Source of the DNA: Peteryoungia algae
GTDB lineage: Bacteria > Pseudomonadota > Alphaproteobacteria > Rhizobiales > Rhizobiaceae
Direction of reading: 5' to 3'
Assembly: GCF_030369675.1 (NCBI RefSeq)
Contig: NZ_CP128477.1
Span: forward strand, 2,494,001-2,558,000
DNA: 64,000 bases
Shown piece by piece: positions 138-30,018 of this stretch. How positions within the stretch are numbered: the stretch's first letter is position 1; each line of letters begins with the position of its first letter. Under the pieces are notes generated by a model that was not told the origin of the DNA, ran no database searches, and saw only the letters and a list, made by a program, of their open reading frames with translations. Made by a program: the position numbers and the translations under genes.

Positions 138-172
138 TCGCCGGATCCTGAGCCTTGGAAAGGATAGAGCAG

Positions 173-6930: not shown

Positions 6931-7152
6931 TCCCTGTCCTTTCGATACCCATAGGCTGCCTTCCAAACTGCTGGGAAGCAATTGATCCAGGCAGGCAACG
7001 GTTAGGCCGATAGGGGTAGATCCGCCGCCGATCCTCGGCCGAAAAGGCGAACGCGGCGGACAATGTCGCTCGTCCGGGCCATCGGCAGGTCTGGGTTGGG
7101 GAAAAGAAATCGAACTCGGAGCGCAGACCAGTGGTCTCAGCGGTTCGGACCG

Positions 7153-9765: not shown

Positions 9766-9985
9766 CGAGCTCACCCGAAGCAAGAATGGAACAAACTTGG
9801 CCGCCCGAACGAATATGACATGACCCATCCGGGCTGCTGCCCGTGAGACCCGTCTGAAGTGAAGCCGCACGGTGGCTGTTGTTCTGCTTAACACGGCCCG
9901 CCTGACGGGAAAACTCTCCTATCGGTCATTGCCGGGGCGCTTGATAGCCTGTACTTTTGGATGAGGTGGACAAGGGGATTTCGAC

Positions 9986-10936: not shown

Positions 10937-11007
10937 CCACAGGACGTAGGTCGAGACGTCGGGGTGGCTGGCCCGGCTGGCGGATCTGCGAGCGAGGAGA
11001 GCACTGG

Positions 11008-12523: not shown

Positions 12524-13258
12524 CTACTTCAGCTTGAAGGCAACTTGCGTACGGTTGGTGACATTCAGCTTCTTCATGATGTTGCGGATATGCACTTTCA
12601 CCGTGCTTTCGCAGAGGTTCATTTCATAGGCGATGATCTTGTTCGCCTTGCCGCGACGCAGGGACTCGGCGACTTCGATTTCGCGTGGAGTGAAACCTTC
12701 ATGCAGGTAGCTTGATCCCTTGACCACCGAGTTCAGCGCCTCGCGGTTGGCAAGAAGGCTGCTTGCGGGAATGAAGACCCCGCCCGCACGGGCTAGCGAG
12801 ATCGCCTCTGCCGCAACGCTGATGTTCACGCTCGTTGGGATATAGCCGCGTGCACCGCAATCGATCGCCTTCAGGATGTCTCCGAGATCGTCTGAGTCGG
12901 CGATCACGATGACCGGGCTCAGCTTGAAGGCTGCTGTCACGGTTTCGATCTTTTCGGACGCAACCGTCTCGGAGGAATTGGTGCCCGCCAGGACGAGCAG
13001 GATGGCCGACGGATCGGCAGGAAACTGGCGTTTGCGCCATTCTTCGACGGTCCCGACTGCAGCAATCTGCATCGTCGGGTCATAGCCCGAAAGACTGCGA
13101 GAGAGACACTCGCGATCCAGCACTCGGCTGTCGAGAATGAGAATATACTCGCCTGACTTGCCCTCGCCCTCCTGGCTGCCCGTCAGCGAACTTATGTAAT
13201 CGATGTCGGCCTTTGTGACCTTATTGTTATTCGTTGAGGTCGACGCATAGGTACCCAT
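12524..13258 (-). CDS. LuxR/NarL-type regulator with degenerate receiver domain
   Basis: The 244-residue protein has an N-terminal receiver-like domain (about 36-150) and a C-terminal LuxR helix-turn-helix with GFTPREIEVAESL and TVKVHIRNIMKKLNVTNRT. At the strand where response regulators carry the phospho-acceptor aspartate, this protein reads AILLVLAGTN (residues 85-94), with no aspartate. It therefore probably does not respond to phosphorylation in the usual way. It closely resembles the second LuxR-type protein at 39193-40014, which keeps that aspartate. GAGGGG lies 7 bases before ATG 13258. Its place at the end of the exopolysaccharide locus suggests control of polysaccharide or surface genes. 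Confidence 0.82.
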   Translation of the reverse strand: MGTYASTSTNNNKVTKADIDYISSLTGSQEGEGKSGEYILILDSRVLDRECLSRSLSGYDPTMQIAAVGTVEEWRKRQFPADPSAILLVLAGTNSSETVASEKIETVTAAFKLSPVIVIADSDDLGDILKAIDCGARGYIPTSVNISVAAEAISLARAGGVFIPASSLLANREALNSVVKGSSYLHEGFTPREIEVAESLRRGKANKIIAYEMNLCESTVKVHIRNIMKKLNVTNRTQVAFKLK

Positions 13259-13530
13259 TTCATACCCCTCACTCTGATTTTCCGAGCCGCACGGCGTCTC
13301 GAAGTCAAAAAAACCCCGCCCCGAAAGGAGCCCACACTGTCATGTCTAAATTTCCTAAGATTACAGGGGTAAAGTTTCACGGATTTATTAGGAGTGCATT
13401 AACCTACGTTAAGTCGCCCCCAAAGAAGCCATAATTCACCCATTTATGGTCGATCAGGGCGGATTTTGGACAGCCGTTAGGCCGAATAATGCCGATTCTT
13501 GGTCCAAATTGAGGCCTTGGGAATCAGCAA
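13259..13530. promoter_or_regulatory. Upstream region of the LuxR-type gene
   Basis: This 272-base gap separates two leftward genes. It is clearly richer in A and T than its surroundings, especially 13300-13445, which fits a promoter for the LuxR-type gene. No convincing gene or clear operator was found. A 66-residue frame here lacks a ribosome binding site and any recognisable feature. Confidence 0.4.
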
Positions 13531-14292
13531 TCAAGACTGATGGATGTCCTGGAAGCCAGCGGTCTCGCTACCATCAGCAAGATAGCTTGGATCGAAATCG
13601 ACCATTTCGATCAGTTTTCGCCGATTCAGAAACTCGACGATTCCGTTGCGGAAAGAGAGCAGTCCGCCCAGACGCATCTCCTTGAGGACGCGATTGACGT
13701 GAACGGTCGAAAGGCCAAGGGCGTCGCCGATCTCCGATTGCTTCAACGGGCATTCGAACCCATCCAGCCCGGGCCGCGCGGAATTGCCGGCACGAATGGC
13801 GAGCTCCAGCAGCAAGTGCCCGGTGCGACCAAAAGCATCGCGCCGCCCGATGCTGGCGAGGCGTTCTGCGATACGCGCGTGGCGCTTCATCAGTTCGATT
13901 GTCATGATCAGCGGCAGTTGCGATCCACCATCGCCGCCGGAACCAGCCATATGGCCTTGGAATTCATAGCAGTTGACGTCGGAGACGGCATGGACCGTCT
14001 CATGCGACATACTCGTTGAGGCCGACGAAAGAACATCTCCATGCAGGAAGAAGTCGGTCACGATGCGAGTACCGTTCAACATCGTCTTGCTCGATATCGT
14101 CCAGCCGTTCTCAATGAACAAGACACGTGACAGAGGGCTCTCGACGTCGAAGATCGTGGTGCCTGCAGGAAAGTGGCGCAGAACGGCGCGACTGGGTCGA
14201 GCACCGGATTTCCGATGTTCCTGCGCCATTGCTTGGCCTAGGTTAAGTTGATCATCGAACCGCATCAGCTTGCTCACATGTCCGCACCTCAC
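13531..14292 (-). CDS. Crp/Fnr-family transcriptional regulator
   Basis: This protein of up to 253 residues has an N-terminal cyclic-nucleotide-binding-like beta-roll (LRHFPAGTTIFDVESPLSRVLF...ENGWTI...FFLHGDV) and a C-terminal Crp-type winged helix. Its recognition region is CPLKQSEIGDALGLSTVHVNRVLKEM. It has no Fnr-like cysteine cluster at the N-terminus, and the ligand is unknown. The start is GTG 14292 or ATG 14265; neither has a clearly better ribosome binding site. It lies beside the NRPS-PKS operon, divergently oriented across a 650-base region, so it may regulate that operon, the polysaccharide genes or itself. Confidence 0.85.
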   Translation of the reverse strand: MRCGHVSKLMRFDDQLNLGQAMAQEHRKSGARPSRAVLRHFPAGTTIFDVESPLSRVLFIENGWTISSKTMLNGTRIVTDFFLHGDVLSSASTSMSHETVHAVSDVNCYEFQGHMAGSGGDGGSQLPLIMTIELMKRHARIAERLASIGRRDAFGRTGHLLLELAIRAGNSARPGLDGFECPLKQSEIGDALGLSTVHVNRVLKEMRLGGLLSFRNGIVEFLNRRKLIEMVDFDPSYLADGSETAGFQDIHQS

Positions 14293-14945: not shown

Positions 14946-16874
14946 ATGACAATGACTGAGCTTCAGGACGAATTAGGGAGCATGAAAACGACGGCCGGAG
15001 GCATGCCTCGACCGCCAGCCCACTTCGACAGGAAGCAGGGCGTGCCGGAAATCGTAAAGGGGCATGCCTCGGCATTCCCCAACGCGCTTGCCATCATCTG
15101 CGATGATGCTCGTTTGACTTATGGCGAACTCGATGCGCTTTCCGACGGTCTTGCGACCTACCTCGTCTCGTGCGGCGTCAAAAAGGGTGATGTCGTATGT
15201 CTGCTCGTCCCGCGCGCGCTTGAAACAGTCGTTGCAAAACTGGCGATATTGAAAGCAGGAGCAGGATATCTTCCGCTCGATCCGGCCTATCCGGCGGACC
15301 ACCTGCAGTACGTGCTGGATGAATGCCGCCCCAAGGTTGTCTTTACGTTTGCCAATCGGAGCTTGGACCCAGGCATACTCAGCGGCTCCGGCAGTCGCGT
15401 TGTCGACCTGTCCACGGTTCTGCAAAGCCTGGGCTCTGGTGATCCGTCCCGCCTCCCGAACATCGAGGGAGGAGACCTCGCATATGTCATGTACACGTCG
15501 GGATCGACCGGGCGGCCAAAAGGCGTCGCAGTTCCCCACCGCGGCATCACGCGCCTCGTCCTCGACCAGAACTACATCGAATTTCGGCCGGGAGACATGG
15601 TCCTCCATTCCACGACCATCTCATTCGATGCATCGACGGTCGATGTCTGGGGCGCCCTCCTGAATGGATCCACTCTGGTCATCATGTCGAAGGCGAACTT
15701 CTCGCTGACCGACATGCGGGATCTGATCAGGAAGCACGAAGTGACGTTCATAAACTTCACCACGGGCCTCTTTAACATCTTCGCAGACCATGCAGATGAA
15801 CCCATGCCCAGTCTGCGCCATGCGATCTTCGGGGGCGAAGTCGCCTCGGCACCGCATGTGAAGCGTTTTGTTGCTGCGCATCCAGGCTGCTCACTGACGA
15901 ATGTCTATGGCCCGACAGAAGCCGCCTGCATCGCAACCACTTTTACCGTCGCCCCAGATTTCTCCGCATCAGAACTGCCAATTGGCAAAGCGATTGCCCA
16001 TACCGATGTCTTTTTGCTCGACGACGATCTCCAGGTCGTACCACCCGGCATCGAAGGCCAGATCGCGATCGCCGGTGATGGGCTGGCCCTTGGATATTTC
16101 AACCGGCCCGACCTGACAGCTGAACGTTTCATCTCGGTCGATACGGCTGAGGGCATCAAGCGCTGCTATCTGACCGGAGATCTGGCGATCCTGGACGAGA
16201 ACGAGACCTTTCACTTCCGGGGCCGCAGCGACCGTCAGGTCAAAATCAACGGCAAACGTATCGAACTGGAAGAGATCGAGACGGCGCTGCGCCGCCACCC
16301 ACGTCTTGCCGAGGCGGTGGTCGAGTGCCGGGAGGCCGGCGGCGTCAAACGGATTATCGCCTATCTCCGCCCGCGCGAAGCGCAGGACATGTCCAATGCC
16401 AATCTCATCCCCTCGGTCATGGAGCGGCTGCGCAACAGTTTGCCAGCCTACATGATTCCGAGCACCGCACTCGTCATGCCCGAGTTTCCCCTGACACGTG
16501 CCGGCAAGATCGACAGGGCACGCCTGCCACTGCCGCCGATCGAGGACATCCAGCCAGCGGCCGTCCGCAGCCGCACCGAGGAAATTCTCATGCGACTTTG
16601 GTGCGATGCCCTCGGATTGGAAATCGTTCCGGCCGATCGAAACTTCTTTGACCTGGGGGGAACCTCGCTGCAGTTGATGCGCGTCCACGCGGGGCTTGAG
16701 CTCGAACTTGGGCAGCGCTGCGAGGTGCTGGCTCTCTTCAAGCACACCACCGTACGCGATATGGCGCGTTTCCTGGACGGCCATGAACAGGCACGCCCCA
16801 GGGCTGCGGCATCCGACCAGCGCGCCGCCCTGCAGCGCAGGACGATGGGCCAATTTCGCCGGAGCACCCCATGA
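14946..16874 (+). CDS. NRPS loading module (adenylation - carrier)
   Basis: The 642-residue protein has an adenylation domain (about 30-515) and a peptidyl-carrier domain (about 540-615). Motifs include YVMYTSGSTGRPKGV (A3), NVYGPTEA (A5), YLTGDLA and RSDRQVKINGKRIELEEIE (A7-A8), LTRAGKIDR (A10) and the phosphopantetheine site GGTSL at Ser574. There is no condensation domain, so it should start the chain. Manual alignment to GrsA gives the pocket D-A-V-N-I-G-V-C-I-K. The leading aspartate, which binds an alpha-amino group, points to an amino acid rather than a fatty or aryl acid; which one is unclear. ATG 14952 is an alternative start. The stop overlaps the next start as ATGA. Confidence 0.9.
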   Translation: MTMTELQDELGSMKTTAGGMPRPPAHFDRKQGVPEIVKGHASAFPNALAIICDDARLTYGELDALSDGLATYLVSCGVKKGDVVCLLVPRALETVVAKLAILKAGAGYLPLDPAYPADHLQYVLDECRPKVVFTFANRSLDPGILSGSGSRVVDLSTVLQSLGSGDPSRLPNIEGGDLAYVMYTSGSTGRPKGVAVPHRGITRLVLDQNYIEFRPGDMVLHSTTISFDASTVDVWGALLNGSTLVIMSKANFSLTDMRDLIRKHEVTFINFTTGLFNIFADHADEPMPSLRHAIFGGEVASAPHVKRFVAAHPGCSLTNVYGPTEAACIATTFTVAPDFSASELPIGKAIAHTDVFLLDDDLQVVPPGIEGQIAIAGDGLALGYFNRPDLTAERFISVDTAEGIKRCYLTGDLAILDENETFHFRGRSDRQVKINGKRIELEEIETALRRHPRLAEAVVECREAGGVKRIIAYLRPREAQDMSNANLIPSVMERLRNSLPAYMIPSTALVMPEFPLTRAGKIDRARLPLPPIEDIQPAAVRSRTEEILMRLWCDALGLEIVPADRNFFDLGGTSLQLMRVHAGLELELGQRCEVLALFKHTTVRDMARFLDGHEQARPRAAASDQRAALQRRTMGQFRRSTP

Positions 16875-19800
16875 CCTTTGACAGTCGGCCAAATGGCCTC
16901 AATCCGGAAACCGAAACCGCAGGCGATCATGACCTTGCCGCTGGTATTGCAATCATCGGGATGTCGGGCCGGTTCCCGGGCGCACCCGATATCTCCACGC
17001 TTTGGGACCTCGTCAAACGTGGCGGCAACGCATTTCGCATCTTCGCCACGGACGAACTGGAAGACGGCTTCACAGACGAGGAACGGGCATCCCCTGAATA
17101 CGTCGCATGTCGCCCTCACCTTGCCGATGTGGATCGGTTCGATGCTGAGTTCTTCGGCATGTTCGCCCGTGAGGCCGCCCTGACGGATCCTCAGCACCGT
17201 GTCTTCCTCGAGATCTGCTGGGAAGCGCTCGAAAGCGCGGGCTATGATCCCTACAAGAGCCCCGGCCTTGTCGGGGTCTTCGCCGGTTGCTCGATGCCGA
17301 CCTATCTCCTGAACAATGTTCTCGCCGACCGCGCGGCCGTGGAGGAGGTAACATCCAACTACCAGATCGGTTGCTACAACCAGCTGATCGGCTCTCTCGG
17401 CGACGCCCTTGCCACCCGGATCGCCTACAAGTTCAACCTCCGCGGCCCTGCTTTCACGCTGCAGTCTGCCTGCTCCACGTCGCTGCTCGCCGTTTCTCAG
17501 GCATGCCAGAACCTTCTGACCTACAGTTGCGACATGGCGCTGGCAGGCGGCGTCTCCATCTCCATTCCCCAAAAGCGTGGCTATATCTATCAGGAAGGCG
17601 GGATGGTTTCTCGCGACGGCGTCTGCCGGCCCTTTGATGCGGAAGCTTCGGGCACCGTCTTCGGCAGCGGTGCTGGGGTGGTGTTACTGAAGCGCCTGGA
17701 GGACGCTGTGGCGGACGGCGACGTCATCTACGCGACCATCCGCGGTTACGCCGTCAACAATGACGGCTCCGACAAGATCGGGTTTACCGCACCGAGTGCA
17801 GAAGGACAGGCTGATGCCATCAGCGCTGCGATTGCCCATGCCGGCATCGACCCGGCAACCATCGGCTATATCGAATGCCATGGAACGGCGACGCCCCTTG
17901 GCGACCCCATCGAGTTCTCCGGTCTCAAGGAAGCCTTCACAGGCGCGCATCACCAGAAGGAGACATGCGCGCTCGGATCGCTGAAAGGGTCGATCGGACA
18001 TCTCGATGCGGCCGCCGGCGTCGCGGGATTGATCAAGGCCACACTCGCCTTGCATCACCGCAAGATCCCGGCCATGCCGAACTACAACACACCCAATCCG
18101 CGGATTGATCTGGACAATACCCGCTTTCACATTCCACGCCGGACAACGGACTGGTTTTCGGGCTCGACGCCCCGGCGGGCGGGCGTGAGCGCCTTCGGCG
18201 TCGGCGGAACCAACATTCATGTCGTGCTGGAAGAGGCACCGAAACGGCTGGAATCCTCAGCCCAAGTCGCCGGCCCGATGATCCTGCCGCTTTCCGCCCG
18301 CTCCGAGCCTGCATTGGCAGAAATGCGCAAGAACCTTGCAAGCCACCTGGAGGAAAACCGCGACATCCCCCTGCAGGCCGTCGCAACGACGCTTCAGCAT
18401 GGCCGACACGCTTTCAAGAGGAGAACAGCCGTTTCGGCGGCCACGGTCGATGAGGCCATCCAGGCCCTGAGACGGGACGGCTTGGTTACGGCGACCGCCG
18501 AGGATCAACCGCCGCCGATCGTCTTCATGTTCCCCGGGCAGGGCGCACAGTATGTCGGCATGGGAGCAGCCCTCTATGAAGGCGAGCCGGAGTTTGCCCG
18601 CTGGATCGATCGCGGCACCGAGCTTTTGAAGATGCGCTTCGGCATCGATCTCAAGGAATATATCTGCCATGCCGGCGCCGTGAGTGGCGCGATGGCGGCA
18701 GAGCAGCGGGAAACCCGGATCGCGCAACCCTGCCTCTATCTCGTGGAATACGCCCTCGCGCAGCTTTGGATGAGCCGTGGTCTGCGGCCAACGGCCATGA
18801 TCGGACACAGCGTCGGCGAGTTCGTCGCGGCCACGCTCGCCAATGTCATCTCGTTCGAGGACGCCTTGACCCTGGTCGCAACCCGCGGGCAACTGATGCA
18901 GGATCAGGAGCCTGGCGCGATGCTGTCCGTTCGCGCAGCGCCCGAGGTGCTCCGCGAACACCTTGAGGGGCGCGCGGAGATTGCCGCGATCAATGCGCCG
19001 AAGCTTTGCGTCGCCTCGGGCCCTCTCGACGACATCGAGGCACTCTGCTTCAGGCTCGAGAAGGCAGGGGTGGCATTCAGCCGACTGCATACCTCTCATG
19101 CCTTCCACTCCGCGATGATGGAGCCCTGCATCGATGCTTTGCGCGATGTCGCCTCGAAAGTGACCTACGGCCGGGCCACCATCCCCTACATTTCCTGCGT
19201 GACGGGCGACTGGCAAAACGACGCAGTGGGATCGTCTCCGGACTATTGGTCTCGGCATTGTCGCGAACCCGTGCGTTTCTCCGATGGACTTGTTACCCTG
19301 TGCAAAGATCAGAGCCCTATCCTTCTCGAAGTGGGACCTGGCCGAACCCTTTCGGTCTTCTCGGCACAGACCATCGGGCGCGACCAATTGCCGGCCATTG
19401 TCCAGTCCCTGCCCGAGCACGACAACGCCGCTGCAGCCCGGCACTTCGTAGCCGACGCCCAGGCTCGTCTTTGGATGGCGGGCAGCGAGATCCCCTGGCC
19501 CGCCATGCCGAACGAAGCTCGCAGAGCCGTATCCCTGCCGACCTACGCCTTCCAGCGGCAGCGACACTGGATCGACGCCCCACCGTCCATCCGACGGGCC
19601 CGCGCCGCGCAATCCGCACGTCAGACAGAACCCGAGAGCATCAAGAGCGAGCCTTTCGCAAGAAATGAGGTGGAAACCATGAACGCCATCAGCACCATCA
19701 CGGTCGCCGGCCGCACTCCGGAGCTTGAGACTGCGCTGATCACCCTTTTGAGCGAAATGTCGGGCGAACCGATAGACTCGGGCAACGTCAACGACAGTTT

Positions 19801-22800
19801 CCTCGAACTCGGCTTTGATTCCCTGTTCATTGGCCAGTTCGCCCAGAAGATCGACAAGCAGTATCGCGTGAAGATCTCCTTCCGCGAACTGCTCGGCAAC
19901 ATCCCCTCGGTCGCAGCCCTGGCTAAATATCTGGACCAGGCCCTGCCACCGGAGCCTGCAAAGGTGGAGGTTGCGCTTAGCCCCACGCCTGCAGCCGACA
20001 TGCAACCAATCTCTGCCCAACCTGCCATGGCCCCGGCTGCGCCACAAATTCCGGCACCGGTCCAGACGCCACTTCCGGGCATTGCCGCCAGCGTCCAGAC
20101 CATGCCGGCGGGCAACATCCCGGTCGGTGCAGGTCTTGAGGCGCTGCTGCAATCGCAGCTTTCTCTCACGCAGAACCTCTTTGCCCAACAATTCCAGCTT
20201 CTCCAGGGCGCAGCATCGGCGCCTGCAGGCGTCGTGGCGACGGCAAAGCCGGAAACGGCTCCGCCGATTGTCGCGCCGGTCGCCGTGGCCGCGCCCCAGG
20301 CCGCGGCGACACCGCAGGTCATGCAGAGCAACCATCCAGCAGAAGAGATCGGCGGAGATCGATATCGCCACTATCAGCAGGGAGGATCAAAGGCCAAGAC
20401 AGACATCACTCCTGAAAAGGAGACCTTCATCAATGATCTGGTCATCGCCTATTCCAACCGCAACAAGCGGTCCAAGGAATATACCCAGACGCACAGGGCC
20501 CGGCTTGCCGATCCCCGCACGGCCTCCGGTTTCCGCGCAGAATGGAAGGAAATGATCTTCCCCGTAGTCTGCGATCGCTCGAAGGGCGCCCGCATCTGGG
20601 ATATCGACGGCCATGAATACATCGACCTGGTCAATGGTTTCGGCCAGACGGCATTCGGCCACGCGCCGGACTTCGTTGTCGACGCCATGAAAATCCAGAT
20701 GGACGATGGCTTCGCCATCGGCCCCCAGACGCCGCTCGCCGGCGAAGTCGCCGAACTGTTCGGCGCCATGACCGGCCATGAACGCGTCACCTTCTGCAAC
20801 ACTGGCTCCGAAGCCGTCATGGCAGCCATGCGCCTCGCCCGTGCTGTAACTGGCCGCGACCGCATCGTCGTTTTCGCCAACGACTATCACGGCCAGTTCG
20901 ATGAAGTTCTGGTGAAGGGTCGCGCCAAGGCCAAGGAACCGATTGCCCTGCCCATCGCGGCCGGCATACCGTCCGGTTCCGTCGGCAACATGATCGTGCT
21001 CCCCTATGGCGCGCCGGAAAGCCTTGATTGGATCAGGGCGAATGCCGAGGATCTGGCTGCCGTGATCATCGAGCCGATCCAGAGCCGCCATCCCGAACTC
21101 AGGCCGCGCGATTTCGTCGCCGAATTGCGCAAGATCGCCGACACATCGGGCTGCGCGCTCGTCTTCGATGAGGTGGTCACCGGCTTCCGAGTCGATCCCG
21201 GCGGCGTCCAGGCCATATGGGGCATCAAGGGCGACATGGCGACTTACGGCAAGGTCGTCGGCGGCGGCATGCCGATCGGTGTCCTGGCGGGCAGCAGCCG
21301 CTTCATGGATGCACTGGACGGCGGACACTGGAACTATGGCGACGACTCCGTGCCGAATGTGGTCCCGACGTTCTTCGCAGGCACCTTCGTCCGCCATCCC
21401 GTGGTGCTGGCAGCGGCCCGCGCCGTGCTTCACCATATCCAGGGCGAAGGCGCGGCCCTCTACGACCGTGTCGCCCGGCGCACGGAAGCTCTGGTCGAGG
21501 AGATCAATTCGGAACTCGCCAAGCGCGGCGTCCCGCCCTGCCTTCGCGGCTACAAGAGCTGGTTCGTCACCGATTTCGGCAGCCAGGATCCTCTTGGCGG
21601 CCTCTTGTACCCCTATCTGCGCATGAACGGCATCCATATCCAGGATGGCTATCCCTGCTTCCTGACGACGGCCCATACCGAAGAGGATTTCACGACGATC
21701 GCAAGAGCGTTTCGCGACGCGATCGACGCGCTGCAATGCGTCGGCATCTTCTCCCCCAAAACCGAAAGCGAACTCGCCGGCCCTGCAACCACACCAGACC
21801 GTGGTCCCAAGCCGACCTTGCATCAGGCACCCCGCGCCGAGAGCGCCGCGTTGACGGAAGCACAATCAGAGATCTGGCTGGCAGCGCAGGCGGGTGACGA
21901 AGCATCGTGCTCGTTCAACGAGTCCCTCTCGCTTGAACTGAACGGTTCTTTGGACCGCAAGGCCTTGCTTGCCGTCATCGATGCGGTCGTTGCCCGGCAT
22001 GACGCCCTGCACATCCGTTTCGACCGAAACGGCGAACGGTTTCGCTTCATCTCCAACTTCAGGCTTCCGGTCGAAGTCGTGGACCTGACAGAAGAGGCTG
22101 ACGCCAAAGCCGCTCTGGACGACTTGATCGAGACCGACGCTAGGACACCTTTCGATCTGGTCGAAGGCCCGCTGGCTCGCGCCTACCTCGTGGCGCTCAC
22201 GCCGGAGCGTCATGTGCTGGTCTTCACTGCGCATCACATCATTTGCGACGGCTGGTCACTGAACGTCATCATCAACGAACTGGCCGCGACCTACTCGGCC
22301 GCATTGAAGGCGGAAGAGCTCTCGCTGGAGCCGGCCATGTCTTTCGCGGACTATGCCGAAAACCATGCGCCCGGCGCGGACGTCAACACCACGACCTCTC
22401 AGTTCTGGCATGAGCAATACAAGGAATTGCCGGAACTGCCGGACATGCCCTTTGATCGCCCCTACCCCGATCGACGCAGCTATGCCGGCGGGACTTGCAC
22501 AGTCATCGTGCCTCCGGAAGTCACGACTGCAGTCCGCAAACGAGGCGCACGAACAGGGGCGACCATGTTCTCGACCATGCTGGCGGCCCTTCAGATCATG
22601 CTGGCGCGCCTGTCCGGCCAGAATGATGTCGTCATCGCTGTACCTTCTGCCGGACAGAGTCTGCTCGATGAACGCATCCTCGTCGGACACTGCGTGAACC
22701 TGTTGCCGATCCGCCAGATGGTCGATCCGTCGACTTCGTTCGAAGATCACCTGAAGACCACGCAACAGCTCGTCCTCAAGGCCTTCGAGCATCAGGACTA

Positions 22801-25045
22801 CACGTATGGCACACTGGTGAAGACGCTGGGGGTCAAGCGCGATCCGCGCCGGCTGCCCCTGACGGGCATCCAGTTCAACCTTGAACGCATGGCGGCGAAC
22901 GCGGAATTCGATGCGCTCGACGCGACGATCGTTCCCAATCCGAAGTCATTTGCGAATTTCGACATGTTCCTCAACATGATCGAAAGCAGGGACGGTATCC
23001 GCATCGACGTGGACTACAATGCCGACGTCCTTGACCGTGAAACGGTTGAACGCTGGATCGGCCATCTCGTCACGTTGATCACCGCGCTGGCGGAAGACAC
23101 CAGCCGCCCCGTGACCGACCTCCCTCTCCTGTCTTCTCGGCAGGTGAAATGGTTGGCCCAAGACCTCAATCAGAGTGCCCTGGACTATCCCAAGGATGAA
23201 TTCGCATTCTCGCTCATCGCAAGAAGGGCGCAATCGACCCCCGAAGCCGTCGCGGCGCGTCACGGGGAAAAATCCATCACCTATGCCGAGCTCGAGGCGA
23301 GAACAAACCGCTTTGCCCGGTATCTCGGCAAAGCCGTCCCCGGCCAGGGTGAACGCGTGGCCCTGCTCGAAGAACGCTCACTCGACCTGCTGGTGGCCCT
23401 TATCGGCATCATGAAGGCAGGACACGCCTATGTCCCGCTCGATCCCGGTCATCCCGAGACACGGCTTCGCCAGACGCTTGCTGCGGCAAGACCGGCCGCC
23501 CTTGTCTGCGGGACCGAGGCAGCAGCGGCGCTCGCCACGGATGGCATGGTGACCATCCGCCTGGACCAGGAGGCCGACAGCATTCAGGCCCTTTCCGGCG
23601 CTCAGCTGGAGCGCGTTCCAACCAGCACGGAATCGACTGCCTATGTGATCTTCACCTCAGGCTCCACGGGAACGCCGAAGGGTGTGGCAATCTCCCATCG
23701 TTCGCTGACCAACTTCCTCCTGTCCATGGCCAGGGAACCGGGCTTCACCGCCGACGACGTCATCGTCGCCGTGACAACCATTTCCTTTGATATCGCCGGC
23801 CTGGAACTCTACCTGCCGCTTGTTGCGGGCGGCAGCGTCGTCATCGCCGACAGGTCGGAGGTCGAAGATGGTTTTGCCCTCGTTCGGCTGATCAAGGGCA
23901 GCAAGGCGACCATCCTGCAGGCAACGCCGACCCTTTGGCAGATGCTGGTGGAAGCCGGGCTCGATGGCGACAGCCCCTTGAAGAAGCTGTGCGGCGGGGA
24001 AGCTCTGCCCAAAGCGCTCGCCCGCACACTTGCCGCCATGCAGGGCTCGCTCTGGAACATGTACGGCCCCACCGAAACGACGATCTGGTCTTCCGTCGCG
24101 CATATTGAAGACGGAGAAGCACCGATTACCATCGGCCACCCGATTGCCAATACCCAGATGCACATTCTGGGCGCGGACGGTCGCCTCGCGCCTCCCGGCA
24201 TCACCGGCGAACTCGTCATCGGAGGCGATGGCTTGGCCCAGGGCTATTTCGACCGTCCCGACCTCACCGACGCAGCCTTCGTTTCGCTCGACATCGGGAC
24301 CGACTCCAGGCAACGCCTTTACAGGACGGGCGACCTGGGGCGGCGGCTGGAGGATGGTTCCCTGCAGCTGCTCGGCCGCCGGGACAACCAGGTCAAGCTG
24401 CGCGGCTTCCGCATCGAGCTCGGTGACATCGAAGCGGTCGTCTCGCAGGTCGAGGGCATGCGCCAATGCGCGGTTGTCGGCGCGAGGAACGGTCGCGGCG
24501 ACCTGGTTCTCGCCTGCTACTTCGTGGCCGACCCCGACACCCCGGCAGCCGATGCGACGCAATTGGCCACCGCGGTCCGTGCCCAGTTGCCGGCCTATAT
24601 GGTGCCCGCCGTCTGGTCTCTGGAGACGGAGCTGCCGCTGACGAGAAACGGAAAACTGGACCGCAAGACATTGGAGTCCCGCGAGCTGAGGCGCGACGAA
24701 AACCAGACTGCAGCGCCCAAGACCGCACCCCGCACGCCGATGGAAGAAAAGCTCATGGCGATCTGGAAGGGCGTTCTGGAGGTCGATCAGATCGATGTCG
24801 AGGACAATCTTTATGCGCTCGGCGCGGACTCGCTGACGATCTTCCGCATTGCCGCACGCATGCTGGATGCGGGCCTGCCGCTCGAAGCCAAGCACCTGCT
24901 CCGCCATCCGTCGATTGCCGAGCTCGCCGCCTATGCCGATGAAGCGGCCAAGGCCCCGACATCCACCGGCGGGGTCGTCTACCAGATACCCTCGCTCGCC
25001 AGCTTCCGGAATGGTGCGCGGCGCAGGATGGAGAGCTTGTCATGA
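16871..25045 (+). CDS. Hybrid PKS-NRPS: KS-AT-ACP-aminotransferase-C-A-T
   Basis: The 2724-residue protein has, in order: ketosynthase (about 20-440, Cys201 in SACSTSL, plus ECHGTATPLGDP and GSIGHLDAAAG); acyltransferase (about 545-830, Ser647 in GHSVGE, HAFH motif indicating malonyl); ACP (Ser984); Ala/Pro linker; class III PLP aminotransferase (about 1170-1580, Lys1461); condensation (HHIICDG at 1788-1794); adenylation (A3 near 2258); and carrier (Ser2654). There is no ketoreductase or dehydratase, so the beta-keto group should be transaminated to a beta-amine, as in the MycA/iturin type. The second adenylation pocket reads DILQLGMIWK, close to known glycine codes. It starts inside the previous stop, and its own stop overlaps the next start (ATGA), so the three genes are translationally coupled. 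Confidence 0.93.
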   Translation: MTFDSRPNGLNPETETAGDHDLAAGIAIIGMSGRFPGAPDISTLWDLVKRGGNAFRIFATDELEDGFTDEERASPEYVACRPHLADVDRFDAEFFGMFAREAALTDPQHRVFLEICWEALESAGYDPYKSPGLVGVFAGCSMPTYLLNNVLADRAAVEEVTSNYQIGCYNQLIGSLGDALATRIAYKFNLRGPAFTLQSACSTSLLAVSQACQNLLTYSCDMALAGGVSISIPQKRGYIYQEGGMVSRDGVCRPFDAEASGTVFGSGAGVVLLKRLEDAVADGDVIYATIRGYAVNNDGSDKIGFTAPSAEGQADAISAAIAHAGIDPATIGYIECHGTATPLGDPIEFSGLKEAFTGAHHQKETCALGSLKGSIGHLDAAAGVAGLIKATLALHHRKIPAMPNYNTPNPRIDLDNTRFHIPRRTTDWFSGSTPRRAGVSAFGVGGTNIHVVLEEAPKRLESSAQVAGPMILPLSARSEPALAEMRKNLASHLEENRDIPLQAVATTLQHGRHAFKRRTAVSAATVDEAIQALRRDGLVTATAEDQPPPIVFMFPGQGAQYVGMGAALYEGEPEFARWIDRGTELLKMRFGIDLKEYICHAGAVSGAMAAEQRETRIAQPCLYLVEYALAQLWMSRGLRPTAMIGHSVGEFVAATLANVISFEDALTLVATRGQLMQDQEPGAMLSVRAAPEVLREHLEGRAEIAAINAPKLCVASGPLDDIEALCFRLEKAGVAFSRLHTSHAFHSAMMEPCIDALRDVASKVTYGRATIPYISCVTGDWQNDAVGSSPDYWSRHCREPVRFSDGLVTLCKDQSPILLEVGPGRTLSVFSAQTIGRDQLPAIVQSLPEHDNAAAARHFVADAQARLWMAGSEIPWPAMPNEARRAVSLPTYAFQRQRHWIDAPPSIRRARAAQSARQTEPESIKSEPFARNEVETMNAISTITVAGRTPELETALITLLSEMSGEPIDSGNVNDSFLELGFDSLFIGQFAQKIDKQYRVKISFRELLGNIPSVAALAKYLDQALPPEPAKVEVALSPTPAADMQPISAQPAMAPAAPQIPAPVQTPLPGIAASVQTMPAGNIPVGAGLEALLQSQLSLTQNLFAQQFQLLQGAASAPAGVVATAKPETAPPIVAPVAVAAPQAAATPQVMQSNHPAEEIGGDRYRHYQQGGSKAKTDITPEKETFINDLVIAYSNRNKRSKEYTQTHRARLADPRTASGFRAEWKEMIFPVVCDRSKGARIWDIDGHEYIDLVNGFGQTAFGHAPDFVVDAMKIQMDDGFAIGPQTPLAGEVAELFGAMTGHERVTFCNTGSEAVMAAMRLARAVTGRDRIVVFANDYHGQFDEVLVKGRAKAKEPIALPIAAGIPSGSVGNMIVLPYGAPESLDWIRANAEDLAAVIIEPIQSRHPELRPRDFVAELRKIADTSGCALVFDEVVTGFRVDPGGVQAIWGIKGDMATYGKVVGGGMPIGVLAGSSRFMDALDGGHWNYGDDSVPNVVPTFFAGTFVRHPVVLAAARAVLHHIQGEGAALYDRVARRTEALVEEINSELAKRGVPPCLRGYKSWFVTDFGSQDPLGGLLYPYLRMNGIHIQDGYPCFLTTAHTEEDFTTIARAFRDAIDALQCVGIFSPKTESELAGPATTPDRGPKPTLHQAPRAESAALTEAQSEIWLAAQAGDEASCSFNESLSLELNGSLDRKALLAVIDAVVARHDALHIRFDRNGERFRFISNFRLPVEVVDLTEEADAKAALDDLIETDARTPFDLVEGPLARAYLVALTPERHVLVFTAHHIICDGWSLNVIINELAATYSAALKAEELSLEPAMSFADYAENHAPGADVNTTTSQFWHEQYKELPELPDMPFDRPYPDRRSYAGGTCTVIVPPEVTTAVRKRGARTGATMFSTMLAALQIMLARLSGQNDVVIAVPSAGQSLLDERILVGHCVNLLPIRQMVDPSTSFEDHLKTTQQLVLKAFEHQDYTYGTLVKTLGVKRDPRRLPLTGIQFNLERMAANAEFDALDATIVPNPKSFANFDMFLNMIESRDGIRIDVDYNADVLDRETVERWIGHLVTLITALAEDTSRPVTDLPLLSSRQVKWLAQDLNQSALDYPKDEFAFSLIARRAQSTPEAVAARHGEKSITYAELEARTNRFARYLGKAVPGQGERVALLEERSLDLLVALIGIMKAGHAYVPLDPGHPETRLRQTLAAARPAALVCGTEAAAALATDGMVTIRLDQEADSIQALSGAQLERVPTSTESTAYVIFTSGSTGTPKGVAISHRSLTNFLLSMAREPGFTADDVIVAVTTISFDIAGLELYLPLVAGGSVVIADRSEVEDGFALVRLIKGSKATILQATPTLWQMLVEAGLDGDSPLKKLCGGEALPKALARTLAAMQGSLWNMYGPTETTIWSSVAHIEDGEAPITIGHPIANTQMHILGADGRLAPPGITGELVIGGDGLAQGYFDRPDLTDAAFVSLDIGTDSRQRLYRTGDLGRRLEDGSLQLLGRRDNQVKLRGFRIELGDIEAVVSQVEGMRQCAVVGARNGRGDLVLACYFVADPDTPAADATQLATAVRAQLPAYMVPAVWSLETELPLTRNGKLDRKTLESRELRRDENQTAAPKTAPRTPMEEKLMAIWKGVLEVDQIDVEDNLYALGADSLTIFRIAARMLDAGLPLEAKHLLRHPSIAELAAYADEAAKAPTSTGGVVYQIPSLASFRNGARRRMESLS

Positions 25046-27591
25046 CCCAGCAAGAAAGCCAGGCCACATCGTCGAGCGCAGCACCGGAGGTCATTGGCGA
25101 GTTTCCCTGCACGCAGACCCAGCTTCGGTTTTGGATCCTCGACCAGCTGCAGCCTGGAAATCCGGCCCTGAACGTATCGGTACGCTGGGAGATCAGAGGA
25201 TCGTTCAAGGCATCGACGATCGAGGCCGCCTTTCGCAAGATCATCCAGCGTCACGAGATCCTGCGCACGCGTTTCGTGGAGCGGGAAGGCAATCCGTATC
25301 AGCAGGTTCTCGATGCAGTAGACTTCAAGCTGTCGGTCATCGACCTCAGGAGCATGCCACCGGAGCAGCGCGAACAACGCATCCTGTCGATCGGTGAGGA
25401 AACAGCGTCGGCCCCTTTCGATCTCACGCGCGGCGGTCTCTTTCGCGTCGCCTTGCTGATGGTCGAGAACAACCGCGCCTTTCTGCTGATCACCGCGCAT
25501 CATACCTGTTTCGACGGCTCCTCCATCCGCGTCATGGGCCGCGAACTTGGTGAAATCGCATCGGCCATGGAAGCAGGCCGCGCACCTGTCCTGCCGGATC
25601 TATCCCTGCAATATGGTGATTTTGCCCTGTGGCAACAGGAATATCTGTCGAGCTACGGCTTCGAGACGGAGCAGAGCTTTTGGACGGAAACCCTGGCAGG
25701 CGCGCCGTATTTCGAGGTGCCGAGCGATCACCCGCGACCAGCGATCAGGACCACAAGCGGAAACATCATCTCCGTCGCGAAATCGGTGGAGTTCGGCGAG
25801 CGTGTCGAGGCCGCCGCCCGCGATCACAAGGTTTCGCTCTTCGCCTATGGCGTTGCGGTGCTCAGCACCGTCCTCCACCGGTTGACCGGGGCAGACGATA
25901 TCCTGCTTGGCACCCAGATCGCCGGGCGTGAACAGTCCGATCTCGAACCGATGATCGGCGTCTTCATCAACAATCTGGTGCTGCGTCTCCCGGTCCGACC
26001 GAACGTGAGCTTCGAAGATCACCTGAAAACCGCAACCAAGGTGGTGAGTGCCGCTGTCGACCACCACCGCATGCCCTTCAACAAGCTGGTCGAAGTCATC
26101 AACCCGGCGCGAGATCCCTCGCGCACCCCGCTGATCTCGGTCAACTTCAACCTGTCCAAAGCCTTTATGGAGGATCGCCACTATGGCGACTTCGAACTGA
26201 TCAGTGCGGCGTCGCAGTCCCCGGGCGTGGTCTATGACATCGGCTTCGGCATGGTCGGACGCCCGTCCGGCTGGCGTATGTCGATCGAATACAATACCGA
26301 TCTCTTCGATCCGTCCACGATCGAACATATCCTGCAGCTTTGGCAGGATGTCTATGAGCAGGCGCTGAGCGCCCCTTTCGAACCCCTGTCGCCCGACAGC
26401 ATCAGCGAGCAGACGCCCGCCTCCGCAACCCCGGCAATTCTCGACTCTTCCGCAGTTCCGCTTTCAGGCAGCCACGCCACAGCCCCGGTCGACGCCATTC
26501 CGCCCGGACCTGAAAACATGGCGGCACTTTCGTCCGCCGACCGTATCAGGCTCGTCGGCGAGATCTGGGCGAAGGTCCTCGACGTCGAAAAGGTCGGACC
26601 GGAGGGTGACTTCTTCTCGCTTGGTGGACATTCGCTGCTGGCGCTTCGCATGCTGTCTGCGGTCAGAGAGCGGTATAGGGTCAAGCCGGATCTCGCCTTG
26701 CTTTTCAGGCATTCGACGCTCCGCAGCTTCACGGAGGCCGTAATGGGGCCGGCGGAGGCCGAAGTGCGCGCGCAAGCGAAAACGGCGGCCCCTGCCTGGG
26801 AGCGCAACAGCTACAAGCAGGGAACAGGCCGCTGTGCGATCTATACGATCAATCACCCGTTTCTCTACTACCATCTCGCCAACCGCCTGAGCGATGACAT
26901 CTCGGTCTACAACGTCAACATGTTCAGCGCGGCGGAAGCCGAAATGGCGGCAGAGGTGACGCTGGAGGATATTGCCGCATCAGCGATCCGCGCGATGGAC
27001 ATACGGGCTGATGCCGGACCGGTGGGCATCATCGGATTGTGCGTGAACGGAAGTGTGGCGCTCGAAGTGGCGCGCCAATTGCGCCAGTCCGGCGTGACTG
27101 TCGCCTTCACGGCTGCAATCGATTCCTGGGCGCCGGGATATTTTAGCACTCTGCCCTGGCTGAACAAGCGACTCTGGATCGCCGAACGCCGGATAAAGCG
27201 TCTTGCCTATTTCGTCCGGAAACTCCTGTCTGGCCGGATGCGCCCCACCACCTTCCTCAAGGAATTCCGCGTGACGCGCTGGCTCCTCGGTATGTTCAGC
27301 CCGGATCGGGCGAAAGCGAGCGCCGAGGAAAAGACCAATTCCCGCGTCACCGAGTTTCTTGTGCGCAGCGCCCGGAATTTCAAGGCGGAACCGGTCGGCG
27401 ATTTTCTGATCTTCCGCAGCGAAGCAAGCCCGGCGCGAGCGAGAAAACTCCTGTTCGGGTGGAACGCGGATGTAGCGGGAAAGTCGTCCGTCATCGACCT
27501 GGAAGGATGGCACGAGGACTCACTCACCGTCGGTGGAATGCGTCGACTGGCCAGCGTCATCGAAGAGCGTTTCGCACACGGAAAACACTGA
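25042..27591 (+). CDS. NRPS termination protein (C-T-TE) with cysteine-type thioesterase
   Basis: The 849-residue protein has a condensation domain (about 15-440, intact HHTCFDG from residue 153), a Ser/Pro/Ala linker, a carrier domain (about 500-575, GGHSL at Ser531) and a type I thioesterase-like domain (about 600-849). No adenylation domain is present, so the carrier must be loaded in trans or receive the chain from upstream. The nucleophile elbow reads GLCVNGSVALEVA, with Cys667 where most such domains have serine. Candidate Asp (AAIDSWAPG) and His (GWHEDSL) complete a triad. Cysteine thioesterases are known in beta-lactone (obafluorin) and beta-lactam (sulfazecin) formation, but also elsewhere, so the release mode here is open. 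Confidence 0.88.
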   Translation: MTQQESQATSSSAAPEVIGEFPCTQTQLRFWILDQLQPGNPALNVSVRWEIRGSFKASTIEAAFRKIIQRHEILRTRFVEREGNPYQQVLDAVDFKLSVIDLRSMPPEQREQRILSIGEETASAPFDLTRGGLFRVALLMVENNRAFLLITAHHTCFDGSSIRVMGRELGEIASAMEAGRAPVLPDLSLQYGDFALWQQEYLSSYGFETEQSFWTETLAGAPYFEVPSDHPRPAIRTTSGNIISVAKSVEFGERVEAAARDHKVSLFAYGVAVLSTVLHRLTGADDILLGTQIAGREQSDLEPMIGVFINNLVLRLPVRPNVSFEDHLKTATKVVSAAVDHHRMPFNKLVEVINPARDPSRTPLISVNFNLSKAFMEDRHYGDFELISAASQSPGVVYDIGFGMVGRPSGWRMSIEYNTDLFDPSTIEHILQLWQDVYEQALSAPFEPLSPDSISEQTPASATPAILDSSAVPLSGSHATAPVDAIPPGPENMAALSSADRIRLVGEIWAKVLDVEKVGPEGDFFSLGGHSLLALRMLSAVRERYRVKPDLALLFRHSTLRSFTEAVMGPAEAEVRAQAKTAAPAWERNSYKQGTGRCAIYTINHPFLYYHLANRLSDDISVYNVNMFSAAEAEMAAEVTLEDIAASAIRAMDIRADAGPVGIIGLCVNGSVALEVARQLRQSGVTVAFTAAIDSWAPGYFSTLPWLNKRLWIAERRIKRLAYFVRKLLSGRMRPTTFLKEFRVTRWLLGMFSPDRAKASAEEKTNSRVTEFLVRSARNFKAEPVGDFLIFRSEASPARARKLLFGWNADVAGKSSVIDLEGWHEDSLTVGGMRRLASVIEERFAHGKH

Positions 27592-27592
27592 G

Positions 27593-29212
27593 ATGGACGC
27601 ATCCACCGCATCCAAGGCAACAGCCACTGATCGACCTTCGCTGGCGCCCCTTCGGATCGGCTTGCTGACCGATGGACGGCACGGCCTCGCAAACTGGCAG
27701 TTCGCCCTGATAGACCGGATTTTGGCCGATGACCGGTTTAGCCTGAGGGCCATGATCGTCTGTCCGCCGAAGGTTGGCGCGGCACCGGTCGCCTTTCGGC
27801 TGGCCGCAGCGGTGGAACGCAGGACCTTGGGGCGCCAGCCGGTCTACCGCCCCAAGGGTCCCGGATTTGCGGCCATCACATCGGTCACGCTCGGCGAGCA
27901 GGTCGGCCGGGACGGAGGCTCGGAGTTGGATCTGGTTCTGGCCATCTCTCCCTTGGACTTGCCGCAGGATGCCTTCTCGGACTTGCCCTTCGGCTCCTGG
28001 CAATTTTCCTTCTCGCATGCGGCCAACGCCGATGCAGACTGGTACGGCTATCACGAAGTGATCGCCGGAAAACCGGCCACGGAACTGCGCATCACCGTTC
28101 GCCGCGCCGGCCGGGAAGACGAGACGTTGGCCATGGCGGAATTCAACACCAAATTCAGCGCCGCCCGCAACGCTGACTTCATCAAGGAACGCGCGGTGAC
28201 ACTGGCCATGCGGGAACTGCGCAAGCTCGCGGACGCCCGTGCCCTTACCGTTCTGCCCCCTCCGGCGACCATGCCCGCCCCTCGTCCGCCGGGCCTCAGC
28301 AAGCTATTGCCCTACGCCGCCTCGCTCGGGCGCAATCTTCTGGCGCGGGGACGGCAGGCGGTGGAGGAAAAATTGGGGATCGGGGCAGCGCCATGGGTGC
28401 TCTTCGTCGGCGATGGGCGCCCGGAAGACTTTGACCCGCGGACCTCTGTCCTGCTGGAGCCTGATGATGACGAGCTCCGAGCCGATCCCTTCCTGTTTCC
28501 ACATGAGGGAGAAACCTATGTCTTCTACGAAGCCTATACGCCAAGCAACACCAAGGCGCATATCGCCGTGGGCCGGCTTGTGGGAAACAGGCTTGAGAGA
28601 CTGGGCATCGCCCTGAAAGCGGAGCATCACCTCTCATATCCCTTTACCTTTCGTCACGATGACGGGATCTTCATGATCCCTGAAACGAACAGGGCCCGCC
28701 GGCTGGAAGTCTGGCGCTGCGTCGAATTTCCCCTGCGCTGGGAACTGCATGCGACAGCCCTCGAAGGCCAGTCCTCGGCCGATTCTGCTCTTTTTCTCTT
28801 CGATGGAAGGTGGTGGCTTTTCACCAATCTCTCCGAGTTCCATGCCTATGAGGATCATTGCAGCGAATTGCATGTCTTCGAAGTGGATGGGCCGGACCTG
28901 AAATGGATGAAGCCCCATCGCAACAATCCGGTGGTCATGGGCAGCACCGAAGCGCGCAACGGCGGACGGCCGTTCGAGCAAGGAGGGCGGCTCTACCGCC
29001 CGTCCCAACGAAATGAATACGGCATATATGGCTACGGGCTGAACATCATGCAGGTCGAGGAACTCGACCTCGAGACCTACAGCGAGCGCTGCGTGCGGAC
29101 CATCAAACCGGACTTCGCACCTGGCATCGTGGCCTGTCATCACATGGACGCTTCGAACGGCCGCTACATCATCGACGCCATGTTCGCGGACCAGGCCGAC
29201 CTGCGGCGGTAG
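27593..29212 (+). CDS. Formyltransferase-like / beta-propeller (GINT1-N-like) protein
   Basis: The 539-residue protein has two parts. Residues 15-240 resemble a formyltransferase-like Rossmann domain (LRIGLLTDGRHGLANWQFALIDRI). Residues 265-530 resemble the five-bladed, GH43-like propeller annotated as the N-terminal region of glucosamine inositolphosphorylceramide transferase. Features of this part are ADPFLFPHEGETYVFYEA, HHLSYPFTF, IPETNRARRLEVWR and GGRPFEQGGRLYRPSQ. Related proteins occur in polysaccharide and natural-product loci; the reaction is not established. ATG 27593 starts one base after the NRPS stop, and the frame itself extends back to 27533. It ends overlapping the convergent phosphopantetheinyl transferase gene by 49 bases. 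Confidence 0.65.
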   Translation: MDASTASKATATDRPSLAPLRIGLLTDGRHGLANWQFALIDRILADDRFSLRAMIVCPPKVGAAPVAFRLAAAVERRTLGRQPVYRPKGPGFAAITSVTLGEQVGRDGGSELDLVLAISPLDLPQDAFSDLPFGSWQFSFSHAANADADWYGYHEVIAGKPATELRITVRRAGREDETLAMAEFNTKFSAARNADFIKERAVTLAMRELRKLADARALTVLPPPATMPAPRPPGLSKLLPYAASLGRNLLARGRQAVEEKLGIGAAPWVLFVGDGRPEDFDPRTSVLLEPDDDELRADPFLFPHEGETYVFYEAYTPSNTKAHIAVGRLVGNRLERLGIALKAEHHLSYPFTFRHDDGIFMIPETNRARRLEVWRCVEFPLRWELHATALEGQSSADSALFLFDGRWWLFTNLSEFHAYEDHCSELHVFEVDGPDLKWMKPHRNNPVVMGSTEARNGGRPFEQGGRLYRPSQRNEYGIYGYGLNIMQVEELDLETYSERCVRTIKPDFAPGIVACHHMDASNGRYIIDAMFADQADLRR

Positions 29213-29913
29213 TGGACCATGACCTCACGACCGGCCGAACAGACGGCGAGCGCACCAGAAAAACCATCGACCACGTGGAGATTGAGGAGGGCCCACTCAG
29301 ACAGCTGGCCTATATCCCGGTCCAGACGCTGGAGCAGACGCTGGCCCTCCACGGCCTCTATCGAAACATCGAACCTGTCCAGCGGAACCGACAGACCTGC
29401 CCCGTGCGCCTTCACGAAGGCCTCTTTTCGTGTCCAGCACCGGTAGAAGCCCGCCAGTTGCTCCCCGCCCGGCAGAGCTGCAAGGGCCGCACATTCGGAT
29501 GCCGAGAAGAAGCGGCTGGCAATATCCTCCTGGAGTGGCCGGATCTCTTCGATGTCGATGCCGACTCTAGCATGCGCCGAGACGGCGAGCATCGCCTCGC
29601 CGGCGCTGTGGCTCAGATTGAAGTGAAGCCTGCCCCGATCGGCGAGATCAAATTCAGGCTTGCCCCAATCGTTGTAGCCGAAGCGAACAGCCCTGGGATC
29701 AATCCCGAGATAGGTCGCAAGGATCAGGCGAAGGCCGGCGCGTCCGACGATGTAATGTTGACGGTCGCCGTCTTTGAGGAAGCGCTGGGCTCGACCGCGT
29801 TCGTCCTCGCTGAGCAAGCTACGCGCATGAGAGGGGTCCGCAAAGGACTGGTCCAGGGACCAGTTCCAGATATCGACCGCAACGGGATCTGCTGAACCAG
29901 GATCGCTTGGCAT
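29164..29913 (-). CDS. Sfp-type 4'-phosphopantetheinyl transferase
   Basis: This 249-residue protein has the Sfp-family hallmarks: YNDWGKPEF and HFNLSHS in the N-terminal half, then VGIDIEEI and FYRCWTRKEAFVKAHGAGL, where Asp/Glu bind Mg2+ and Lys/Glu act in catalysis. It transfers phosphopantetheine from CoA to carrier-domain serines. In this position it should activate Ser574, Ser984, Ser2654 and Ser531 of the neighbouring assembly line. ATG 29913 is preferred over TTG 29922, although neither has a strong ribosome binding site. The last 49 bases overlap the convergent propeller-protein gene on the opposite strand. Confidence 0.92.
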   Translation of the reverse strand: MPSDPGSADPVAVDIWNWSLDQSFADPSHARSLLSEDERGRAQRFLKDGDRQHYIVGRAGLRLILATYLGIDPRAVRFGYNDWGKPEFDLADRGRLHFNLSHSAGEAMLAVSAHARVGIDIEEIRPLQEDIASRFFSASECAALAALPGGEQLAGFYRCWTRKEAFVKAHGAGLSVPLDRFDVSIEAVEGQRLLQRLDRDIGQLSEWALLNLHVVDGFSGALAVCSAGREVMVHYRRRSAWSANMASMM

Positions 29914-30018
29914 CGGCAACAAGGGCTTTCGACCGAGGGGACGGAACTGTCATCCCGAACTGCCCACGACCCTGCCGCGCTTGACGTGAAGCGTCAACAC
30001 GCCCTATCGGTCAGGTCT

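Follow-up and report, generated by a model that had tools for sequence, protein, structure and literature searches.

What does a hybrid nonribosomal peptide synthetase (NRPS)-polyketide synthase (PKS) assembly line make in Peteryoungia algae, and why is it encoded where it is? The line occupies three genes of the window analyzed here, a stretch of 64,000 nucleotides (contig NZ_CP128477.1, positions 2,494,001 to 2,558,000) whose own numbering is used below. It is part of a Wzx/Wzy-type exopolysaccharide (EPS) locus, the genes of which lie directly upstream and were missed in an earlier note on this DNA. A priming sugar transferase, a flippase, Wzc- and Wza-type proteins, and glycosyltransferases (GTs) are all present together in the window and the 20 kb upstream of it; three further GTs and a second flippase are encoded upstream of the window. 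The reading that we prefer is that the collinear line makes a diamino peptide, belongs to this locus, and has its product attached to an EPS sugar, a combined claim that we regard as evenly balanced between right and wrong.

The three genes encode, in order, an adenylation-thiolation (A-T) starter; a ketosynthase (KS)-acyltransferase (AT)-acyl carrier protein (ACP)-aminotransferase-condensation (C)-A-T protein; and a C-T-thioesterase (TE) protein. Intact frames, a 4-bp overlap at both junctions, and Pfam matches confirm this order, which the earlier note had proposed. Pfam also gives no ketoreductase (KR), dehydratase (DH), or enoylreductase (ER) match in the three proteins, in agreement with its remark that the line has no KR.

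Linkage to exopolysaccharide genes among relatives

Species genomes were scanned with the aminotransferase region; 128 places were confirmed, and the best 80 were kept as loci. These belong to Rhizobiaceae, Chelativorans, Nitratireductor, Stappia, Rhodobacterales, metagenome-assembled genomes of Hyphomonadaceae/Caulobacterales, Novosphingobium, and Reyranella. The line is an accessory trait. At the thresholds used, matches occur in 11 of 297 sampled genomes of the family (the window genome counted) and 6 of 199 of the order, including three at 43 to 46% identity that possibly represent different lines; no match was obtained in three further members of the genus.

The EPS genes accompany the line in most relatives. 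Among 50 of the 80 loci, hand-picked for spread, the priming transferase family Bac_transf lies within 30 kb of the aminotransferase in at least 45 genomes, versus 1.99 expected when the genomes are taken as independent random sites (median distance of 15.6 kb and range of 6.1 to 24.3 kb among the matches listed), and Poly_export lies within 30 kb in at least 32. Neighborhoods of up to ~60 kb from 25 of the 50, plus the window, were clustered using nonoverlapping frames of at least 120 amino acids (aa) chosen by a GC-position rule, under which some genes will be missed. The recurrent families among these 26 neighborhoods are Bac_transf (25), C-T-TE (25), Wzc (24), Wzy-like (23), Wzx (22), the 4'-phosphopantetheinyl transferase (PPTase; 22), GT391 (21), a propeller protein encoded next to the line (21), a methyltransferase (19), LuxR (18), and Crp (14), and gene order differs among the Rhizobium, Rhodobacterales, and window types. 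All six annotated plasmid records inspected (Rhizobium sp. SL42, Rhizobium sp. CCGE531, two of Loktanella salsilacus, Rhodobacter sp. CZR27, and Jannaschia sp. M317) likewise mix NRPS-PKS and EPS genes. For strain 11515TR, which has a plasmid match, the genome note lists EPS, NRPS, and PKS genes, unconnected (PMC6256449).

Condensation-domain loci (E value of 1e-20) in another, overlapping choice of 25 of the 50 genomes served as a control. The line is the only such locus in 18 of the 25. Among the seven other loci, a listed Bac_transf is found at a distance of 30 kb or less in one case, versus 24 of 25 for the line (Fisher P = 5.2e-5), and that one locus, in G535, is 38 kb from the line itself. 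Pairwise identities of the neighboring proteins correlate with those of the KS protein, with Spearman coefficients, from which species relatedness is not removed, of 0.90 for Wzx, 0.90 for C-T-TE, 0.87 for Wzc, 0.82 for GT391, 0.81 for the methyltransferase, 0.79 for the propeller protein, 0.72 for Bac_transf, 0.70 for the PPTase, and 0.69 for the Wzy-like protein.

The Wzy-like protein of the window is 69 to 86% identical to those of G489, G490, and G499 and at most 31% identical to those of the other neighborhoods, including G492, whose other EPS proteins are 60 to 75% identical to the window's. It is 48 to 49% identical to those of two NRPS-less genomes (G187 and G295) and 27 to 35% identical to those of the nine other NRPS-bearing family genomes having it. 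Thus, the putative polymerase, and with it probably the backbone, has changed while the line was retained.

Conserved residues and the predicted product

The statement that all key residues of the line are intact holds for the KS, AT, ACP, aminotransferase, C, and T motifs and needs qualifying for the TE, whose nucleophile is Cys667 and not Ser. The motifs of the 2724-aa second protein are ACSTSL (Cys201), HGTA, and GHLDAAAG in the KS; GHSVGEF and SHAFHS in the AT; GFDSL in the ACP; YGKVVGGG, with Lys1461, in the aminotransferase; HHIICDG in the C domain; and GADSL in the T domain, and the third protein has HHTCFDG in C and GGHSL in T. When the window protein is aligned with the long second proteins of 76 relatives (77 rows), the KS Cys is found in 76, with one gap, and both KS His residues, the AT Ser, the ACP Ser, the aminotransferase Lys, the His-His-Asp of C, and the Ser of the second T domain (T2) are found in all. 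SHAFHS, which we take to be a malonyl signature, is also kept in 77 of 77.

The pocket of the starter A domain (A1) is legible in 73 of the 77 rows, with no readable A-T for L063, L072, L073, and L077, and Asp235, seen earlier in the window, is present in every legible pocket. The window pocket, DAVNIGVCI, is common to five relatives (L003, L007, L008, L009, and L014). The A1 pockets are mostly aliphatic (DALFLGAVF in 12, DAFLLGAVM in 7, and DAFWLGGTF in 5 of 73 rows), assignments that we draw, other than for DAFWLGGTF, from resemblance. The solved structures nearest to A1 are amino-acid A domains, with linear gramicidin synthase on top. DAFWLGGTF is given for Val in PMC9113097. In 9 of 77 rows A-T is fused ahead of the KS in one protein, which indicates that A-T feeds the KS; in Rhodobacter sp. 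CZR27 and Jannaschia sp. M317, the A, T, KS, AT, ACP, aminotransferase, C, A, and T domains are all in one protein according to Pfam. The fusion and the conserved Asp235 support the amino-acid starter that had been suggested.

Embedded class III aminotransferases convert a beta-ketoacyl-ACP to a beta-amine, as in MycA and the iturin type. The best Protein Data Bank match of the aminotransferase is mycosubtilin synthase A (6kfm; 415 bits), and the best glutamate-1-semialdehyde aminomutase scores 183 bits. This match and conservation over 73 to 77 rows favor the earlier proposal of malonyl extension with beta-transamination. The second A domain is of the DILQ type in 72 of 77 rows, 63 of these being exactly DILQLGMIW as in the window; the rest are four Reyranella loci and Novosphingobium. 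Since DILQLGMIWK is the code of Gly-activating domains in PMC12283262, the second amino acid, left open earlier, is predicted to be Gly. The predicted core is thus an aliphatic amino acid converted to a 3,4-diamino acid and followed by Gly, with the substrates suggested by pocket codes and homology.

The constant part of the third protein is its Cys nucleophile. In an alignment of 76 rows (75 relatives plus the window) it is present in all, in the window within GLCVNG and together with Asp694 and His824; most TEs have Ser. The Asp is kept in 73 rows and the His in 70, the rows lacking His being L006 and L053, which are cut by contig ends, and L055, L062, L063, and L081, which have another residue. 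In an AlphaFold model, Cys667 sits after strand 661-666 and before helix 668-682, as a nucleophile elbow requires; the mean predicted local distance difference test (77.6) and predicted template modeling score (0.53) mean that its domain arrangement cannot be relied on. Fold comparison places AB3403 of Acinetobacter baumannii (4zxh) nearest to the model; this protein is also the top sequence match given for the TE segment, with a weak E value of 0.011. AB3403 has a Cys nucleophile with an Asp after beta-6 (PMC11298585), and Asp694 comes after the strand that succeeds the nucleophile elbow, the AB3403/EntF place and not the later-strand (RifR-like) place of ObiF and SulM. Formation of a beta-lactone or beta-lactam by the Cys-TE was set aside because of this difference. 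The T motif of the third protein is degraded in 5 of 76 rows (L071, L076, L078, L079, and L080). At the second His of HHxxxDG, its C domain keeps His in 7 rows, including that of the window, and otherwise has Gln (58 rows), Asn (7), Ala (3), or Ser (1). With this His lost, the domain probably performs no ordinary His-catalyzed condensation in most relatives.

In the proposed route, A1 would load an aliphatic amino acid onto the first T domain (T1), and the KS would condense aminoacyl-T1 with malonyl-ACP, the malonate being supplied via the AT. The embedded aminotransferase would then replace the beta-keto group with an amine to form a 3,4-diaminoacyl-ACP, which the C domain would join to Gly-T2, and the C-T-TE protein would take the chain onto Cys667 as a thioester and release it.

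Possible attachment to a polymer or release

On the reading that we prefer, the released chain would end up on a sugar of the neighboring EPS, most likely through an amide or ester bond, and the Cys-TE, possibly with the adjacent propeller protein, would perform the transfer. It is the conserved linkage that suggests this step. A thioester may favor attack by an amine more than a Ser ester does, which makes transfer to an amino sugar, or cyclization through one of the amines, plausible. A family of aminotransferases, of the DegT type according to Pfam analysis of one member, found in 10 of 26 neighborhoods, adjoining the PPTase in annotated records, and absent from the window's neighborhood, could supply an amino sugar as the acceptor. 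More generally, the line may be a nonribosomal decoration module by which a diamino peptide is covalently placed on EPS of differing backbones in several alphaproteobacterial orders, a view held tentatively and at slightly less than an even chance.

Several observations weigh against this reading. No dedicated sugar-acyltransferase was recognized. The third module has a T domain and, by Pfam, no A domain, the second His is absent from 69 of 76 of its C domains, and no triad His aligns in L055, L062, L063, and L081, with Asn also replacing Asp in L055 and L062. No code matching DAVNIGVCI was found, and the published Val code occurs in L055, L071, and three Reyranella rows, none of which is closely related to the window. 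Among the matches listed, there is no priming transferase near the line in G517 (R. tubonense), whose contig extends 21 and 30 kb to its two sides, in G522, whose contig extends 8 and 29 kb, within 39 kb on either side in Reyranella G531, or anywhere in the genome of Reyranella G532. In G533 (R. massiliensis; 5.8-Mb contig), the cassette and a PPTase stand amid housekeeping-like genes, with the nearest listed priming transferase 1.0 Mb away. Thus, the line can exist without EPS genes. Conversely, 31 of 297 family genomes have the Wzy-like protein and lack the line, so this EPS type does not need the line.

Because Reyranella has the cassette without EPS genes, we keep as a rival a free secreted small molecule containing a 3,4-diamino acid, which might act as a signal, an inhibitor of proteases, or an antimicrobial and would be released or cyclized by the Cys-TE, the EPS genes merely sharing a biofilm or surface state and regulators with it. 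The line is complete and is equipped with a TE and a PPTase, regulators of the LuxR and Crp types lie between it and the EPS set, and the Cys-TEs of obafluorin and sulfazecin synthesis release small cyclic products according to PMC6668435 and PMC11298585. However, linkage to EPS genes survives rearrangements in at least 45 of 50 genomes, whereas other NRPS loci are so linked in one of seven, and besides Wzx the transporter-like families found in at least 5 of 26 neighborhoods look like importers (a ugpC-like ATPase in 8 and an oppB-like permease in 5). We consider a free product possible but somewhat doubtful.

If the EPS adjacency were instead a historical accident in one lineage, the line would be an ordinary secondary-metabolite cluster. 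The relatives are akin, so that the genomes are not independent, and the 50 were hand-picked; yet the linkage is seen in Rhizobiaceae, Stappia, Rhodobacterales, Hyphomonadaceae, and Novosphingobium with differing gene orders, which makes an accident very unlikely. The A-less T domain of the third protein could also be supplied in trans by the A-T protein, acting as a SyrB1-like carrier, with the KS primed by another acyl group. Fusion of A-T directly ahead of the KS in 9 of 77 rows, the 4-bp gene overlap in the window, and persistence of A-T in all four of the degraded-T rows whose sequence extends upstream speak against such a role, and we judge it unlikely.

Known systems resemble the line in part. 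Like the mycosubtilin/iturin MycA-type module, the line has an embedded aminotransferase of MycA-like sequence between ACP and C, its Lys present in 77 of 77 rows, and no KR; unlike MycA, whose starter is a fatty acyl ligase, it begins with an amino-acid A-T (Asp235) and is linked to EPS genes. Lines of the microcystin/nostophycin type (McyG/McyE) likewise use an A-T starter to feed a PKS that contains an embedded aminotransferase, but those lines start with a phenyl acid and have several PKS modules with KR, whereas here one KR-less extension follows straight after the amino acid. The Cys in the nucleophile elbow is shared with the type I thioesterases ObiF, SulM, and AB3403, as described in PMC6668435 and PMC11298585; the present module differs in having no A domain, and its Asp is at the AB3403/EntF place. 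Dlt D-alanylation of cell-wall polymers offers a working analogy of adenylation plus carrier feeding glycopolymer acylation, although here the chain is a multimodular PKS-NRPS product and no MBOAT-type transferase was recognized. The priming transferase, flippase, Wzc, Wza, and GTs, with the 460-aa protein as a candidate Wzy, are those of Wzx/Wzy-dependent EPS loci of Rhizobiales and Rhodobacterales, from which this locus differs by the hybrid NRPS-PKS inside it. PPTase-linked PKS/NRPS genes of Agrobacterium vitis were considered; the literature search yielded nothing usable about them, and we claim no link. Embedded aminotransferases, Cys-TEs, and EPS loci have all been described separately; the open literature searched, outside which most subscription papers fall, yielded no account of the three together, of this line, or of an NRPS-PKS within EPS loci of this kind.

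If the product is polysaccharide bound, multimodular natural-product assembly lines would serve in making surface glycans, and a product anchored to a polymer would escape screens of culture extracts. A vicinal 3,4-diamino acid, unusual and cationic or metal binding, would then be carried on the EPS of plant-associated and marine bacteria, and the view of biofilm charge and host contact might change.

Features of the window and neighboring genes

The coordinates are collected in Table 1. The 460-aa membrane protein has no Pfam or NCBIfam match, and its topology and context point to a putative Wzy polymerase. The 503-aa protein after the GT8 gene may be glycoside hydrolase-like.

Table 1. Features of the exopolysaccharide locus and assembly line (window positions)
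Position	Strand	Feature	Basis or remark
1..137	+	End of Poly_export/SLBB (Wza-type) gene, 440 aa, begun upstream of the window	Poly_export 35 bits, cut-off 28
155..2488	+	Wzz/Wzc-type chain-length and autokinase-like protein, 777 aa	
2491..3432	+	Family 2 GT	
3528..4412	-	TIGR04325 methyltransferase	172 bits, cut-off 80
4378..5964	-	Wzx-type flippase	Polysacc_synt_3
6256..6981	-	Priming undecaprenyl-phosphate sugar transferase	Bac_transf
7153..8535	-	460-aa membrane protein, putative Wzy polymerase	Nine hydrophobic segments (simple hydropathy count)
8593..9894	-	Group 1 (GT4-like) GT	
9986..12384	+	GT8 (9986-10936), then 503-aa protein without family match	
12524..14292	-	LuxR-type and Crp-type regulators, between EPS genes and assembly line	
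14946..16874	+	Starter gene, A-T, 642 aa	Pfam; A ~15063-16508, T ~16587-16775
16871..25045	+	KS-AT-ACP-aminotransferase-C-A-T gene, 2724 aa	Pfam; catalytic residues over 77 rows
20411..21730	+	Embedded class III aminotransferase region, residues 1181-1620	Pfam Aminotran_3; Lys1461 in YGKVVGGG
23219..24655	+	Second A domain, pocket DILQLGMIW	Gly code
25042..27591	+	C-T-TE gene, no A domain, 849 aa	Cys nucleophile codon 27040-27042
27593..29212	+	Conserved next gene (propeller protein), GINT1_N domain	ATG start inferred
29164..29922	-	PPTase	Pfam ACPS; NCBIfam HetI model below cut-off

In the protein encoded directly after the line, fold searches, covering almost only residues 277-537, find a five-bladed GH130/GH43-like beta-propeller in the C-terminal part, and conserved Asp/Glu positions (e.g., ADPF and PET) are suggestive of a putative glycosidase, phosphorylase, or transferase activity. 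Its N-terminal half has a formyltransferase-like look, and amine formylation was considered but is not claimed, this half being poorly conserved and having no such Pfam domain. A family of ~390 aa is encoded just after or near C-T-TE in five neighborhoods (G515, G520, G527, G529, and G533), four of them without the propeller protein; its members are L055:17409-18587 and genes near L062, L069, L071, and L080, and one has weak alpha/beta-hydrolase matches (PETase-like and PAF-acetylhydrolase). The Reyranella massiliensis locus L080 (G533:C1:3221701-3235124) carries this family along with A-T, KS-AT-ACP-aminotransferase-C-A-T, a C-TE protein with a degraded T motif, and a PPTase in surroundings that, with genes named by eye, appear housekeeping-like; the pocket of its second A domain reads DVTQIALIY, which is not the Gly code.

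EPS loci with a propeller and a Wzy-like protein but no PKS-NRPS in the 40 kb examined (L139:1701-6522 and L141:982-5770) carry enzymes of the asparagine-synthase, stand-alone AMP-binding, and NAD-synthase types, a possible second acyl or amide decoration module. On the other side of the line, a GntR regulator, a dipeptide-type ATP-binding cassette (ABC) transporter, and an M42 aminopeptidase (30142-37443) adjoin it, with oppB-like relatives in 5 of 26 neighborhoods; these genes probably serve unrelated peptide uptake. Farther on (39193-48207) lie genes for a LuxR protein, a Gly-rich protein (177 Gly in 571 aa), a 680-aa protein without a Pfam match, an ABC exporter-type protein, and HlyD. The five have matches lying together inside an NRPS-less EPS locus of G405 (identities: ABC, 69%; HlyD, 54%; LuxR, 36%; 680-aa protein, 30%; Gly-rich protein in parts), so that EPS loci of this kind may be accompanied by a type I secretion set as they move. 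The last set (48556-61792) comprises a sugar ABC transporter and inositol-catabolism-like genes (KduI/IolB family, thiamine pyrophosphate enzyme, PfkB, aldolase, and MocA-type dehydrogenases).
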